DNA of 26,318 nucleotides from positions 1-26,318 of the IMG/VR virus record IMGVR_UViG_3300025168_000569; one strand, written 5' to 3'. Below are positions 370 through 5,867 of this stretch, in pieces (the stretch's first letter is position 1; the number at the start of each line of letters is the position of its first letter). Origin of the DNA: a virus. The notes under the pieces were generated by a model that was given only the letters and a program-made list of their open reading frames with translations, did not search any database and was not told the DNA's origin. A program made the position numbers and the translations under genes.

Positions 370-1060
370 GTTTATAAAGCTAGGACCTTGCCCTCACTGT
401 GGTTCTAGTGATGCTAGGGGTGAGTATGCTGACAATTATTATTGTTTTAGTTGTGGTAAATACGATAAGAAATCTGACACTGCATCGTTGAGAGAGCGTA
501 TCAAACAGCGAACAAAACAACATGTAGCTAATGGTATTGGTCTCATTGATACAGTAAAAGAAATACCTCGTACTGCTATGCAATGGTTACTAAAGTATAA
601 CATTACACCAGCAGAAATAAAACAATATGGTATTGCTTGGTGTATGAACAGACAGTTACTTGTGTTAATACAAAATGCAGGATACTGGCAAGCTCGTAAC
701 TTTGGCTTTGGTAACATGAAGTATATGTCTCAAGGTATGAAACCTCTTGAGATATATGGTGAAGGTAAAACAATAGTAGCAGTAGAAGATGTATTGTCTG
801 CTATTAAAATAGCTAGATGTAGAGGTGAGGGTATCTGTGCTACACCTTTGCTTGGCTCCTCTATGAGCAAGCAAGTTGTCGCCCAGTTATCTAAGCAATA
901 TGACACAGTACATATATGGTTAGATAGAGATAAGGCTAAACAATCTATACGTATAAGAAACAATCTGCGTGAAGCAGGTGTAACTAGCAGGGCTATCATC
1001 AGTGCGCTAGACCCTAAAGAGTATAACAAAGAGGAGATATTAAAATGGTTGAAGAGTTAA
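359..1060 (+). CDS. DNA primase, T7 gp4 N-terminal half type
   Basis: This makes RNA primers for lagging-strand synthesis. An N-terminal zinc-binding domain is visible (CPHC at about residues 9-12 and CFSC at about 27-30 in the 233-residue form). A TOPRIM domain follows with the catalytic glutamate in VAVEDVLSA and the metal-binding acidic motif in HIWLDRDKA. In T7 the primase and helicase are one polypeptide. Here they are two genes that overlap by 16 bases, so they are made together and presumably work together at the fork. ATGs at 350, 353 and 359 are in frame; 359 is chosen because MTSKFIKLGPCPHC gives the usual short lead into the zinc finger. It overlaps the zinc-ribbon gene by 11 bases. 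Confidence 0.92.
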   Translation: MTSKFIKLGPCPHCGSSDARGEYADNYYCFSCGKYDKKSDTASLRERIKQRTKQHVANGIGLIDTVKEIPRTAMQWLLKYNITPAEIKQYGIAWCMNRQLLVLIQNAGYWQARNFGFGNMKYMSQGMKPLEIYGEGKTIVAVEDVLSAIKIARCRGEGICATPLLGSSMSKQVVAQLSKQYDTVHIWLDRDKAKQSIRIRNNLREAGVTSRAIISALDPKEYNKEEILKWLKS

Positions 1061-2280
1061 TCATCAAGCTGTTCATGACAGAACGAACGGCATACGATAG
1101 ATTCTACAAACATCTAAACTTAAGTTATATTAAAACTAACTTTGTTAGTTTATATAAATTGTTTATGGTAATTCATAGTTACTATGAAAAGTCTGACAAG
1201 ACTTCGATGAGTAAGAGTGATTTAGAATTAGCATATCATAGTAGTTATCTACTAGAAGATAGTGAACGCAATGAACTATCTGACCTATTAGATAGAATAC
1301 TAGAGCTTGAGTTAACAGAACAAAATGTGTATGCATATCTTAATGCACACAAACAGCGATGTATTGCAGGCGAAGTGGCTAAACTTGCATTAGATGTAGA
1401 AGATGGCACGGCTAAAGTAGAAGAGTTACTAAATAAATTTAATGAATTAGAACATGAAGACACACAAACAGAAGAGGCTACTCCTGTTAACATGGACTTA
1501 CATGAAATATATGAATCGCAAATCCAAACGCCTGGGCTACGATGGCGTTTAGATTGGCTCAACAAATCACTAGGTTCTTTACGCAAAGGTGACTTTGGTT
1601 TTATCTTTGCTAGACCAGAGACAGGTAAGACTACCTTCTTAGCATCAGAGATGACCCATATGGTATCACAAACGGATGGTGATATACTCTGGTTTAATAA
1701 CGAAGAGCAGGGTAAGAAGGTAGCAGTCAGATGTTTCCAAGCCCTGTTTGGTTTAACTAACAAAGAATTGTTTGATGATAGAGAAAACAATGCTAATGAA
1801 TATAAACAAAAAGTTGGTAGTAGAATTAAAATATATGACTATGAAGATAGTAGTAGTACTAGTCGTATTGAATCTATTATCAAAGAAACTAATCCATCGT
1901 TAATTATCTTTGACCAGATAGATAAAGTACGTGGTTTTAAAAGTGACAGGTATGACCTGGAACTTAAGAAACTCTATCAATGGGCTAGAGAAATGGCTAA
2001 GATATATGCACCAGTCATTGCAGTATCTCAAGCAGGTGGTACTGGTGAAGGTAAAGTATGGTTAACAATGGATGATGTAGACAGCAGCAAGACTGCAAAG
2101 CAAGGTGAAGCTGACTGGATACTAGGTATAGGTAAAGAACAAGACAACACTAGTAACATGAGATACTTAAACATTAGTAAAAATAAACTGTTAGGTGATA
2201 AAGATACATTACCTGACCTACGTCATGGCAATCAACAAGTCATGATTAAACCTAACATAGCGAGGTATGAAGAACTATGA
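1045..2280 (+). CDS. Replicative DNA helicase, DnaB/T7 gp4 C-terminal half type
   Basis: This is a RecA-fold hexameric helicase that unwinds DNA at the fork. The Walker A loop is ARPETGKTT (about residues 189-197). Walker B is SLIIFDQID with the acidic D290. A SQAGGTGEGK segment (328-337) lies where DnaB helicases sense DNA and nucleotide. The first 150 residues are helical and acidic and carry no zinc finger or TOPRIM domain, which agrees with the separate primase just upstream. The ATG at 1045 has a GAGGAG box at 1031-1036. The stop overlaps the polymerase start as ATGA. Family membership is clear from the motifs; RecA-like recombinases are less likely given the neighbours. Confidence 0.93.
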   Translation: MVEELIIKLFMTERTAYDRFYKHLNLSYIKTNFVSLYKLFMVIHSYYEKSDKTSMSKSDLELAYHSSYLLEDSERNELSDLLDRILELELTEQNVYAYLNAHKQRCIAGEVAKLALDVEDGTAKVEELLNKFNELEHEDTQTEEATPVNMDLHEIYESQIQTPGLRWRLDWLNKSLGSLRKGDFGFIFARPETGKTTFLASEMTHMVSQTDGDILWFNNEEQGKKVAVRCFQALFGLTNKELFDDRENNANEYKQKVGSRIKIYDYEDSSSTSRIESIIKETNPSLIIFDQIDKVRGFKSDRYDLELKKLYQWAREMAKIYAPVIAVSQAGGTGEGKVWLTMDDVDSSKTAKQGEADWILGIGKEQDNTSNMRYLNISKNKLLGDKDTLPDLRHGNQQVMIKPNIARYEEL

Positions 2281-3440
2281 GCTACTTAGTATTAGATGTA
2301 GAAACAACTATTAGTAACAAAGGTAATCCATTTGATAAGAACAACAAGCTATGCATGGTTGGGTTACTTACACCTGAAGAGTATGTAGTATATGATATAG
2401 AATACTCCGTTGACCCCTACAAGGAATCACTACAACGAATCCAATTAGCCGTGGATAAGTGCGATGTGCTTGTAGGGTTTAACATTAAGTTTGACTTGCA
2501 TTGGTTACGCAGGTATGGTATTGACTTTACAGGTAAACGTATCTGGGATTGTCAAATAGTAGAGTATGTATTATCTAATCAAGAGTTAGCTTACCCATCA
2601 CTCAATGGAACAGCAGAGTACTATGAGCTGGGTAGTAAGCTTGATGAAGTTAAAGAAAACTACTGGAAGAATGGTATTGACACAGACAAAGTACCACAAG
2701 AAATACTTGCTGACTACCTTAAACAAGATGTAGAACTAACAGAAAAAGTAATGAAAAAACAAATGGAAAGAATCAATGACCTTCCTCATATGAAGCGATT
2801 GATATCTTTACAAAATCAAGACGTACTTGTCCTACAAGAAATGGAATTCAATGGTATGATATACGACTATGATAAATCTAAAGTATTAGGAGATGAATTA
2901 CATGAACAAATCAGCAAACTTAATAAGAGGTTGTATGACTATCATTCTTACGATAGTTTTAATCCCAATTCTGGGGAGCATCTTTCTGCTTTTCTTTACG
3001 GTGGGGTTATCAAAGAGCGTTTTCAACGCCCCATCGGACATTATAAAACTGGCGTACATGCAGGCGAAGTTAAGTATAAATGGGATGAAAGAGATAAAGA
3101 ATTCCAAAGACAAATAACTCCCCTGCCTAAGAGTGAGCTTAAGAAAGAAGGGTTCTTTAGTACTAACGAAGAAACATTACGTAAAGTTAAACCTAAAACA
3201 AATGCCGGGAAAGAAATACTGGCAGCAATATTGGCACGAGCTACCATGCAGAAACGTATGACAACATACTATCATGGTGTGCCTGAACTAATTGATTCAA
3301 TGAACTGGAAAGATAGTAAGATACATGGTCAGTTGAATCAATGCAGGACTAAAACAGGTAGGCTAAGCAGTAGTAGTCCTAACCTACAAAACTTTGATGG
3401 AGAGATTAAGACTCTCTTCTTATCACGATACGGAGAATAA
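2277..3440 (+). CDS. Family A DNA polymerase, N-terminal piece: 3'-5' exonuclease and thumb
   Basis: This is the front half of a T7-like DNA polymerase. All three proofreading exonuclease motifs are intact: D7 and E9 in LVLDVETT, D73 in GFNIKFDLHW, and the YxxxD motif Y147 to D151 in YLKQD. A thumb region follows, and the piece ends just after the conserved palm sequence TGRLSSSSPNLQN and KTLFLSRYGE. It then stops, before motif A, which lies in the separate gene at 3677. About 390 residues precede motif A against about 474 in T7. That matches the loss of the roughly 76-residue thioredoxin-binding insert in the thumb. The start overlaps the helicase stop as ATGA. Confidence 0.93.
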   Translation: MSYLVLDVETTISNKGNPFDKNNKLCMVGLLTPEEYVVYDIEYSVDPYKESLQRIQLAVDKCDVLVGFNIKFDLHWLRRYGIDFTGKRIWDCQIVEYVLSNQELAYPSLNGTAEYYELGSKLDEVKENYWKNGIDTDKVPQEILADYLKQDVELTEKVMKKQMERINDLPHMKRLISLQNQDVLVLQEMEFNGMIYDYDKSKVLGDELHEQISKLNKRLYDYHSYDSFNPNSGEHLSAFLYGGVIKERFQRPIGHYKTGVHAGEVKYKWDERDKEFQRQITPLPKSELKKEGFFSTNEETLRKVKPKTNAGKEILAAILARATMQKRMTTYYHGVPELIDSMNWKDSKIHGQLNQCRTKTGRLSSSSPNLQNFDGEIKTLFLSRYGE

Positions 3441-3441
3441 C

Positions 3442-3675
3442 ATGAGCAGAGATGATTACTTAGCAGCACAAGAGTATGAAATAGATTCAGCTGAGCAACA
3501 GAAAGCACAAGAAGAAGCACATCAACACTTTACAGCACATGAGTTTAGTAACATGATACTATCTCTTGGACCTAATGCAGTACTGTCATTACTTACTGAT
3601 GAAGCTAGGTCTGAGTTAAGAAAAAGTATTATCTTACAATATAACCACAGACTAGTAGAAACTACAGGATTATAA
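3442..3675 (+). CDS. Unknown 78-aa protein lying between the two polymerase pieces
   Basis: The ATG at 3442 has a GGAG box at 3431-3434, within the end of the upstream polymerase piece, and begins two bases after its stop. The product is soluble, rich in Gln, Glu and Ala in its first half, and predicted helical, ending in a Leu-rich helix and LRKSIILQYNHRLVE. I see no LAGLIDADG, GIY-YIG or HNH motif, so it does not look like a homing endonuclease, and no intein motifs flank it. It ends one base before the start of the C-terminal polymerase piece. It may be a passenger, or it may help the two halves associate. An in-frame start at 3394 lies inside the polymerase and is not preferred. Confidence 0.75.
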   Translation: MSRDDYLAAQEYEIDSAEQQKAQEEAHQHFTAHEFSNMILSLGPNAVLSLLTDEARSELRKSIILQYNHRLVETTGL

Positions 3676-3676
3676 T

Positions 3677-4387
3677 ATGATACTTAACGCAGATGCAAAA
3701 GCTCTTGAATGGGTATGTGCATCCTTCTTATCACAAGATAAGACAGCACATCAAGAGATACATGATGAGATTGACCAGCATACAGATAATCAAACAAGGT
3801 TTGGTCTACCATCTAGATTGATAGCAAAGACATTCGTCTTTAGATTAATCTATGGTGGTAGTGCATTCAGTTATGCTAATGACCCTAACTTTAAAGATAT
3901 AGGTAATGAATTATTTTGGCAAAATGTCATTGACCAATTCTATCGTAAGTATACTGGTCTTAAAGATTGGCATGATAAACTTATGTTTGATGTAAAGAAA
4001 ACTAATCAACTCATCATGCCTACAGGTAGAACATACAAGTACTTACCTGAAACAAACAGTATGGGTAACATAAAGTATCCACGCACACGAATCCTTAACT
4101 ACCCAGTGCAAGGACTCGGTGCTGACCTTATGACAATAGCTCGTATTAGTTTGTATAACAAGATAGCAAAGATGGATGGTGTTAAACTTATCAATACAGT
4201 GCACGATTCAATCATGCTTGACTTCGACCCGAAGGTATGTTATACTAATAGTATAGTACAAATAGTTAAAGAATCATTTGAAAATGTACCAGCAAACTTT
4301 AAACATTTGTTTGGTAAAGAATTCAACCTACCCATGAGGGTTGATATACAAGTAGGAAATACATGGGGTAACTTAACTGATATATAA
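3677..4387 (+). CDS. Family A DNA polymerase, C-terminal piece: palm and fingers
   Basis: This carries the nucleotidyl transfer site. Motif A is ADAKALEW with catalytic D6 and E11. Motif B is RLIAKTFVFRLIYG with R47, K51, F55 and Y59. Motif C is TVHDSIML with catalytic D177 after H176. The protein starts directly at motif A, so with the upstream piece (2277-3440) the polymerase chain is complete with little or nothing missing at the junction. The two pieces total 623 residues. The residue matching E. coli PolI F762 and T7 Y526 is Phe. The start has no clear Shine-Dalgarno box, so it may rely on translation of the 78-residue gene ending one base earlier. Confidence 0.94.
   Translation: MILNADAKALEWVCASFLSQDKTAHQEIHDEIDQHTDNQTRFGLPSRLIAKTFVFRLIYGGSAFSYANDPNFKDIGNELFWQNVIDQFYRKYTGLKDWHDKLMFDVKKTNQLIMPTGRTYKYLPETNSMGNIKYPRTRILNYPVQGLGADLMTIARISLYNKIAKMDGVKLINTVHDSIMLDFDPKVCYTNSIVQIVKESFENVPANFKHLFGKEFNLPMRVDIQVGNTWGNLTDI
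4218..4246 (+). promoter_or_regulatory. Candidate sigma70 promoter inside the polymerase gene
   Basis: TTGACT (4218-4223), a 17-base spacer, and TATACT (4241-4246) with a TG one base before it (extended -10). Transcription would start near 4253, about 145 bases before ssb. The layout matches the stronger promoter at 7154-7182. Part of the -35 lies in codons of polymerase motif C (LDFD), so chance is possible. Confidence 0.42.
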
Positions 4388-4396
4388 GGAGATTAT

Positions 4397-4939
4397 ATGC
4401 AAGTAAATGTCGTAGATGTATCAAGCTTGAACACACATCAAGCAAAGAATGGTAGACAATACCAGTCAATTGAAATCATGTACAAGAATGACCAAGGTCA
4501 GGCACAGTCTAAAAAGCTAATGTCTTTCGCTAACCCTGCAGTATTTAAAGCAGCTCAAGACTGGGCAAAGGGTGATGTAATACATGTATCAACAGAGAAA
4601 GACCAGAATGGATATTGGCAATGGACAGCAGTAGGAACAGCTGACACCACTACAGACAACCGTGGTGATGATAGTTCAGCAGCAGCACCTACTCAAGCTA
4701 AAGCAGCGACCAGGGTATCAGGTAGTAACTATGAGACCAAGGATGAGCGTGCCGCTAGGCAAGTAATGATAGTCCGTCAGTCATCATTAAGTAATGCCGT
4801 AGCGACCCTAGCAATAGAAGGGAGCAAGGCAACAGCTAATGATGTAGTTAGTCTAGCTAAATTATATGAGGGGTATGTCTTAGGTTCAGAGCCATCAGGG
4901 GCTAGTATTAATGACCTTGAATCAGACATACCATTCTAA
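4397..4939 (+). CDS. ssb: Single-stranded DNA-binding protein
   Basis: This coats single-stranded DNA at the replication fork. The first 110 residues look like an OB fold (alternating beta strands, aromatic WAKGDVIHV and GYWQWTAVG). A linker rich in Ala, Thr and Asp follows. The C-terminus is ESDIPF, which closely matches the DDIPF tip that bacterial SSBs use to recruit partner enzymes; this tip is the best evidence. The ATG at 4397 has a strong AAGGAG box at 4386-4391. Residues 120-165 form an extra helical segment (YETKDERAARQVMIVRQSS) also seen in phage SSB-like proteins. It sits between the polymerase and the nucleases, and its stop overlaps the next start as TAATG. Confidence 0.85.
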   Translation: MQVNVVDVSSLNTHQAKNGRQYQSIEIMYKNDQGQAQSKKLMSFANPAVFKAAQDWAKGDVIHVSTEKDQNGYWQWTAVGTADTTTDNRGDDSSAAAPTQAKAATRVSGSNYETKDERAARQVMIVRQSSLSNAVATLAIEGSKATANDVVSLAKLYEGYVLGSEPSGASINDLESDIPF

Positions 4940-5160
4940 TGGATGGTAGATGGAAAGCTAATATTATAGCTCTAGGGATAATTATTTTATTCCTAGGGGT
5001 ATTAGCTTACTATGATAACCATGTATATAGTAATATTAATTTAGGTCAAGAAGTAATACTTGATGATATATTACCTTATGCTAATCCAACAGTTGATGAT
5101 TTACCTCCAGTAACAGAGGATGGTAGTCATCTTCCAGATATTCCTGCAATTATTTTATAG
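4939..5160 (+). CDS. Small single-pass membrane protein, 73 aa
   Basis: Residues 8-24 (IIALGIIILFLGVLAYY) form one clear transmembrane helix preceded by positive charges (RWK), which predicts an N-in, C-out protein. The outer part is acidic and proline-rich (DDLPPVTEDGSHLPDIP). The start overlaps the ssb stop as TAATG. I do not recognise the family. A spanin-like role is conceivable because of the proline-rich outer tail, but it lies in the replication region, has no lipobox, and is short, so this is weak. Confidence 0.62.
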   Translation: MDGRWKANIIALGIIILFLGVLAYYDNHVYSNINLGQEVILDDILPYANPTVDDLPPVTEDGSHLPDIPAIIL

Positions 5161-5168
5161 GAAAAATT

Positions 5169-5867
5169 ATGCAAGCATTAATTGACCATGATTTAGTAGT
5201 GTTTAGATGTGCAGCATCTGCAGAAAATGATGGTCTTAATATAGCAATCCATCGAGTAGAAGCATTACTTGATGAGTTGCTTACTAAGACTGGAGCAGAT
5301 AGCTATCGTGCGTTCTTATCAGGTAAGTCTAACTTCCGTAAGACTATCTATCCTGAGTACAAAGCTAATCGTACTGCACCTAAGCCCGTACATCTAGAAG
5401 CTCTACGAGAATATGCTCTAGAGAAACAGAATGCGGAACTTGCACCTGATACATTAGAGGCTGATGATGCCCTGGGCATTAATCAGACTGATGATACTAT
5501 GATTGTATCATTAGATAAAGATTTACTAATGGTCCCAGGTAAACATTTCTCATGGGAAATTAAAGGTAAAGGCTGGACAAAGCCCGATAAGTTTTTTACA
5601 CAAGATGCGATAGGTGGTATGAGATTATTCTTTGAGCAATGTCTTAAAGGTGATACTGCTGATAACATCAAAGGTATCGAAAAGATAGGTAACAAACGGG
5701 CTGCAGCTTTACTTGCAGATTGTGTTACTGAGCAGCAGATGTTTGATGCTGTTCGTAATGCATATGGTAATGATGACGAGTTTATTATGAACGCATCAGT
5801 ACTATGGATAATGCAGAATGAGGAGGATGTATGGAAGGACAGGTTTAATGCCTACGTTCAAAAGTAA
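5169..5867 (+). CDS. 5'-3' exonuclease, FEN family (T7 gp6-like)
   Basis: This flap-type nuclease removes RNA primers and degrades host DNA to nucleotides. Metal-binding acidic residues appear in order: D6 and D8 in LIDHDLV, E98 with D99 and D100 in LEADDA, and D116 and D118 in SLDKDLL. A helix-3-turn-helix DNA-binding segment follows, GDTADNIKGIEKIGNKRA (161-178), which is a FEN hallmark. Length (232) is somewhat shorter than T7 gp6. The start at 5169 has an AGGAAA box at 5159-5164. Its 3' end overlaps the Endonuclease I gene. The adjacent exonuclease and resolvase suggest joint processing of host DNA and replication intermediates. Confidence 0.92.
   Translation: MQALIDHDLVVFRCAASAENDGLNIAIHRVEALLDELLTKTGADSYRAFLSGKSNFRKTIYPEYKANRTAPKPVHLEALREYALEKQNAELAPDTLEADDALGINQTDDTMIVSLDKDLLMVPGKHFSWEIKGKGWTKPDKFFTQDAIGGMRLFFEQCLKGDTADNIKGIEKIGNKRAAALLADCVTEQQMFDAVRNAYGNDDEFIMNASVLWIMQNEEDVWKDRFNAYVQK

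Follow-up and report, generated by a model that had tools for sequence, protein, structure and literature searches.

Results

The window, the whole 26,318-nucleotide stretch of viral DNA that was analysed (IMG/VR record IMGVR_UViG_3300025168_000569), contains a DNA polymerase encoded in two pieces. A primase gene (350-1060) runs in the same direction as the polymerase genes and is followed by a DnaB-like helicase gene (1045-2280, plus strand), which overlaps the start of the polymerase N half by 4 nt (ATGA) and whose counterpart in Methylophilales phage MEP401 is annotated as a DNA helicase. The N half (2277-3440, plus strand; 387 aa) comprises the 3'-5' exonuclease, the thumb and the palm as far as the strand that precedes motif A, and ends in ...TGRLSSSSPNLQNFDGEIKTLFLSRYGE ahead of its stop codon. 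The C half (3677-4387, plus strand; 236 aa) opens with MILNADAKALEW... and carries palm motif A (Asp6), fingers motif B and motif C. The 236-nt gap between the halves (3441-3676) is occupied by a small ORF (3442-3675, plus strand) of the MEP401 ORF14 family, which encodes a predicted helical protein of 77 aa. Its putative ribosome-binding site, GGAG at 3432-3435 (plus strand), recognised by its match to the consensus, lies within the last N-half codons, 6 nt ahead of the ATG at 3442. The site for the C half, AGGA at 3666-3669 (plus strand), sits in the final codons of the 77-aa ORF, the TAA stop of which (3673-3675) is followed by the C-half ATG at 3677-3679, and a similar layout was found in most relatives. 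Another gene (4397-4939, plus strand) comes next after the C half, an order shared with L003 and L005, two split relatives. Re-reading of the sequence confirmed the coordinates, the 236-base gap and the GGAG box of an earlier note on this DNA; the 78 residues it gave for the small ORF include the stop.

The nearest relatives are MEP401 and MEP402, complete genomes of cultured phages of OM43 strain FZCC0133 classed in Zobellviridae, which contain the same three genes in the same order with the same break. Over the polymerase region, the window is 97.1% identical in DNA to MEP401 and 90.4% to MEP402, and its N half shares 97% of its amino acids with MEP401 gp13. The split itself is not new: the polymerases of these phages have been described as ORF13 and ORF15 'segmented by a small unknown protein (ORF14)', and split polymerases were reported in most group I metagenomic genomes (PMC10580990).

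We examined the two halves for family-A (PolA) domains and residues. The N half matches PF01612 (E 2e-6) and the front of PF00476 (E 8e-19), and the C half matches positions 154-380 of PF00476, to the end of the model (E 4e-23), so that the halves cover complementary parts of one domain and together hold motifs A, B and C. The exonuclease residues D7/E9/D73/Y147/D151 are present in the N half, and the polymerase residues D6, R47/K51/F55/Y59 and H176/D177 in the C half. The earlier claim that all catalytic residues are intact holds for these residues but not at the position of Pol I Glu883, which is Ser178 in the C half, as it is in fused and ICP2-type relatives (VHDS). The label 'T7-like' was also loose: the mark of T7 DNA polymerase is Tyr526, equivalent to Pol I position 762, where the C half has Phe55, and its nearest relatives are MEP401 and MEP402. 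In the AlphaFold model of the C half (mean pLDDT 93.8), residues 2-7 form the motif-A strand, and a PDB comparison matched the model to palm and fingers structures of family-A enzymes.

Fused relatives are known (L142, L143 and L166). Alignment of the fused relative HTVC033P to Klenow placed the break between ...FIAPED and YVIVSADYSQ, at about E. coli Pol I 698/699, a number obtained by counting backwards from Asp705, whose position is known. The fused polymerase of L166 has only a short 'YKDG' turn at this site and all motifs of the split enzyme are in place, in agreement with the earlier view that nothing essential is lost at the break. The locus thus holds two ORFs with their own starts and stops that make up one ancestral protein without essential loss.

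Scans of IMG/VR with the C half, the N half and the small ORF, together with phage records, yielded about 200 loci containing both halves, most of them on fragments; a scan with the N half of the Alcaligenes phage alone gave no matches, and no relatives were found in bacterial genomes. None of the first 133 two-half loci was fused. In the next set, loci flagged as 'fused' at -17 to -4 nt proved to be overlapping genes in different frames, and L166 alone reads through the break in one frame (SRYKDGVLLNYDVKGLE). All loci of the MEP clade but one share the same break, and in each of the 112 distinct junctions it falls at one and the same turn, immediately ahead of motif A, with an ATG as the C-half start in 107 of them. 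The gap ranges from -17 nt (gene overlap) to 3.6 kb: 16 of the 112 gaps are no larger than 5 nt, 6 are of 6-150 nt, 71 of 151-330 nt, 18 of 331-1100 nt, and one is larger. The last is that of MW202796, in which several genes, including a DNA cytosine methyltransferase gene, lie between the halves. At the other end of the range, the polymerase genes overlap by one base in Alcaligenes phage QDWS535 and as ...TAATG in L074. A polymerase split before motif A with a small gene between the halves is real, and agreement between two cultured isolates and 112 distinct junctions rules out a sequencing error or frameshift. The earlier note had considered that close relatives might all lack a split; we found the opposite, and the relatives show the break to be an old one. 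Of the 112 junctions, 110 have a tight stop-to-start spacing, as do 21 of 25 other, ordinary boundaries in MEP401. Since tight packing is normal in this genome, the spacing is no special sign of coupled synthesis, and we do not claim coupled translation as a feature of the split.

The report on MEP401 and MEP402 considered an intron possible and left open whether the gene is interrupted or split (PMC10580990); the comparisons made here argue against an intron and point to a clade-wide split with an exchangeable slot. A self-splicing intron in the gap, yielding one fused polymerase, would not be out of place in this gene, since phage polymerase genes often carry group I introns, with polA examples in SPO1, SP82, Bastille, Pf-WMP3, phiL7 and PhiI/W31 at sites 674, 676 and 881 (PMC3428280). 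However, those introns act at the RNA level and their exons rejoin, whereas the MEP break at about 698/699 has a stop, a ribosome-binding site, a start and no ribozyme. At the window junction, an Rfam search as permissive as E=1 revealed no ribozyme core and no other hit, and the ICP2 junction likewise gave no match. The gap contents of relatives are non-homologous, the C half comes with a start codon and a ribosome-binding site of its own, and the gap amounts to -17 to 5 nt at 16 of the 112 junctions and to 3.6 kb of ordinary genes at another. Because of this range, no intron or intein can be general, and we consider an intron at the window junction highly improbable. Splicing, which the earlier note had named as a possible refutation of its reading, is not the explanation.

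A probable intron does occur elsewhere in the same polymerase family. In L160, an HNH-encoding insert (4930-5600) interrupts motif B (KVFVFR^LMYGG) and matches the group I intron model RF00028 end to end, at E 3e-4, below the curated threshold; its downstream exon has no separate start. Inserts of the same type were found in L164 (4068-4650) and L166 (6345-7027). The insertion site, after the residue following the equivalent of Pol I Phe762, is not among the sites 674, 676 and 881. The L160 case indicates that a real intron in this family is recognisable and sits elsewhere.

The halves might alternatively be joined after translation by a split intein, for which the jumbo phage MIJ3 offers a precedent, with a split PolB, a putative split intein and an HNH gene (PMC6892783). 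Pfam searches found no intein or Hint domain here, and there is no room for one: the N half stops no more than a few residues from the final polymerase strand, and the motif-A strand opens the C half, leaving no spare residues at either terminus. We regard joining by an intein as almost certainly excluded.

Decay of the polymerase in a phage relying on the host enzyme would be another reading. Against it, dN/dS is well below 1 in both halves, indicating purifying selection. The catalytic residues are retained, and 139 of 144 distinct C halves keep an unbroken frame once introns are set apart. That four of the five broken frames fall just after the motif-A Asp (chance about 4e-5 if breaks were uniform) is the one point in favour of decay, which we judge very improbable. 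These four breaks lie within codons 8-11 (L004:5053-5095, L159:4362-4400, L164:3890-3930 and L205:3697-3735) and comprise +1 and -1 shifts and an in-frame TAG; they may reflect recoding, a nuclease scar or assembly error.

We investigated the contents of the slot between the halves, assigning slot classes by HMM and by eye. The 77-aa family occupies the slot at 138 of the 222 loci examined. In L011, L012 and L014, a family member is accompanied by a winged-helix protein (HTH_39, E 4e-10). The slot of L004 (uncultured phage MW202697; 4849-5055) holds an R67-type dihydrofolate reductase gene (PF06442, E 3e-22), that of L171 (6167-6637) an endonuclease gene (PHROG 3322, E 6e-30) whose end overlaps the C-half start, and those of L080, L119 and L182 single-span membrane peptides; in some relatives the slot is empty. 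With these classes (empty, 77-aa family or other), at least 16 changes of slot state are needed across the 51 split tips of the tree. In the window itself, a small ORF (4939-5160) whose membrane-anchored product has an acidic, proline-rich tail resembles the slot membrane peptides of L080, L119 and L182.

The pairwise dN/dS of the 77-aa ORF is 0.12-0.39, indicating that it is a real gene. Its AlphaFold model shows three helices with a helical hairpin (pLDDT 90.6). Searches of Pfam, PHROG and the PDB gave no match, to nucleases or otherwise, and the closest viral structures are two unnamed phage proteins (E 0.17-0.31). The earlier note proposed that this protein may join the halves. A third subunit that holds or assembles both chains would fit its presence in 138 of 222 slots, a frequency that may point to a genuine role alongside the polymerase, as well as its purifying selection and its confidently modelled hairpin. 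It would also fit the position of the gene in MW202796, after the N half although the C half is 3.6 kb away, and the copy retained in L074, 3.6 kb off and upstream of the primase. However, the gene was undetected in the complete split-polymerase genomes MW202697 and Alcaligenes phage QDWS535 and in the 48-51 kb contigs behind L157, L158, L161 and L162. Moreover, some split relatives have overlapping or abutting halves, several lineages with overlapping halves have no 77-aa gene there, and among the nearest relatives the gene evolves faster than the halves. Since whole split-polymerase genomes lack a copy and that of L074 lies elsewhere, the protein is no general joiner, and a role as third subunit appears unlikely. 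We favour the reading that the 77-aa gene is an exchangeable passenger, which may play an accessory part within its lineage.

A second type of split was found in Vibrio phages of the ICP2 type (NC_015158, NC_024791, Saratov-12 and VP41s3), in which a family-A polymerase is likewise encoded by two ORFs with a variable or empty slot, but the break lies about 20 residues upstream of the MEP-type break. The ICP2-type N half ends in ...PNLQNISN* and the C half starts with MSDIKRCIISRF or a close variant, so that the strand preceding motif A is in the C chain in the ICP2 type and in the N chain in the MEP type. The polA group I intron sites 674/676 (PMC3428280) are situated just a few residues ahead of this break. 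In ICP2_2013_A_Haiti and Saratov-12, only 9 nt with a ribosome-binding site separate the halves; the slot holds an HNH ORF in ICP2 and an 86-aa ORF in VP41s3. L229 also has an ICP2-type split, with about 530 nt between the halves and a C half that is 46% identical.

In a tree built by a quick search on about 630 columns, the ICP2-type and MEP-type polymerases are apart, with fused lineages among them; the placement of L153, on a long branch, is unsure. A single clade for both splits was rejected (AU p=0.011), as was an MEP-type clade without the fused L166 (AU p=0.010), both values resting on a long-branched tree from a quick search and on groups that the trait itself delimits. One split event for both types was thus rejected by the AU test, and the ICP2 type appears to be a second, independent split. 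The polymerase of L166 (4995-6347) is fused at the MEP break site and nested inside the split clade, suggesting a possible re-fusion; the mixed alignment around L166, in which C pieces were misplaced, was left out.

Discussion

We conclude that the window very probably encodes a family-A replicative polymerase as a gene in pieces, with two unspliced chains, a slot that takes up passenger genes and a probable fracture by a homing endonuclease. The split, the fixed break site, the variable slot and the lack of a general intron or intein are shown by comparison of sequences across the relatives. The N and C halves would be translated as separate chains from one operon, with neither RNA nor protein spliced, and would pair non-covalently. 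The palm sheet would be completed at a turn made up of just a few residues in fused relatives. With all motifs in place, the expectation of a working two-subunit enzyme is upheld, and we infer that the two chains assemble and are active. The break point would serve as a permissive slot at which small genes come and go.

Known systems offer precedents for this arrangement. In T4-like phages such as 25 and 44RR, the replicative polymerase is made as two chains, 43A and 43B, with gap contents that vary among relatives, and gp43A and gp43B of Aeromonas phage 25 copurify and are active (PMC2988022). These are family-B enzymes, whereas the polymerase of the window belongs to family A and is broken just before motif A. 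In Aeromonas phage Aeh1, the essential metabolic gene nrdA is likewise in two pieces with a small gene, mobE, between them and no splicing, and the split nrdA is fully functional (PMC2988022). Aeh1 differs in that the gene encodes a ribonucleotide reductase and the inserted gene is an HNH homing endonuclease, whereas the window contains a helical ORF without a nuclease signature.

For the origin of the split, it is plausible that a free-standing homing endonuclease gene inserted beside the strongly conserved target, fractured the polymerase gene and was later lost or replaced. The break in the window holds the 77-aa ORF, which has no nuclease match, and an endonuclease was found at the break in L171 of the MEP clade and, as an HNH ORF, in ICP2. 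Because only one MEP-clade lineage carries an endonuclease there, it may have invaded an existing split, and the endonuclease of phage 25 may likewise have entered an already split gene (PMC2988022).

We see about an even chance that phage family-A polymerases fracture repeatedly at the turn before motif A, with two independent breaks at nearby places, at least one re-fusion and harmless turnover of mobile small genes (an endonuclease, a winged helix, an R67-type DHFR, membrane peptides and the 77-aa helical family) in a large and long-lived two-chain PolA lineage. The split replicative polymerases known from experiment are the family-B enzymes of T4-like phages; the polymerases described here make up a family-A lineage of aquatic phages that is both broad and old. 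Since fused, overlapping, adjacent and dispersed versions occur naturally, the assembly of a split enzyme and the fracture of a gene are directly testable in this group.

The results also carry a warning for annotation, as gaps at the MEP break site in such polymerases are not introns. The polymerase of ICP2 (NC_015158; L006:3959-6527) is annotated as a single joined CDS across the HNH gene. Because the sister strains have 9 nt between the halves, with a stop, a ribosome-binding site and a start, the ICP2 polymerase is probably split as well, with a free-standing HNH gene, and the joined RefSeq CDS is probably wrong.
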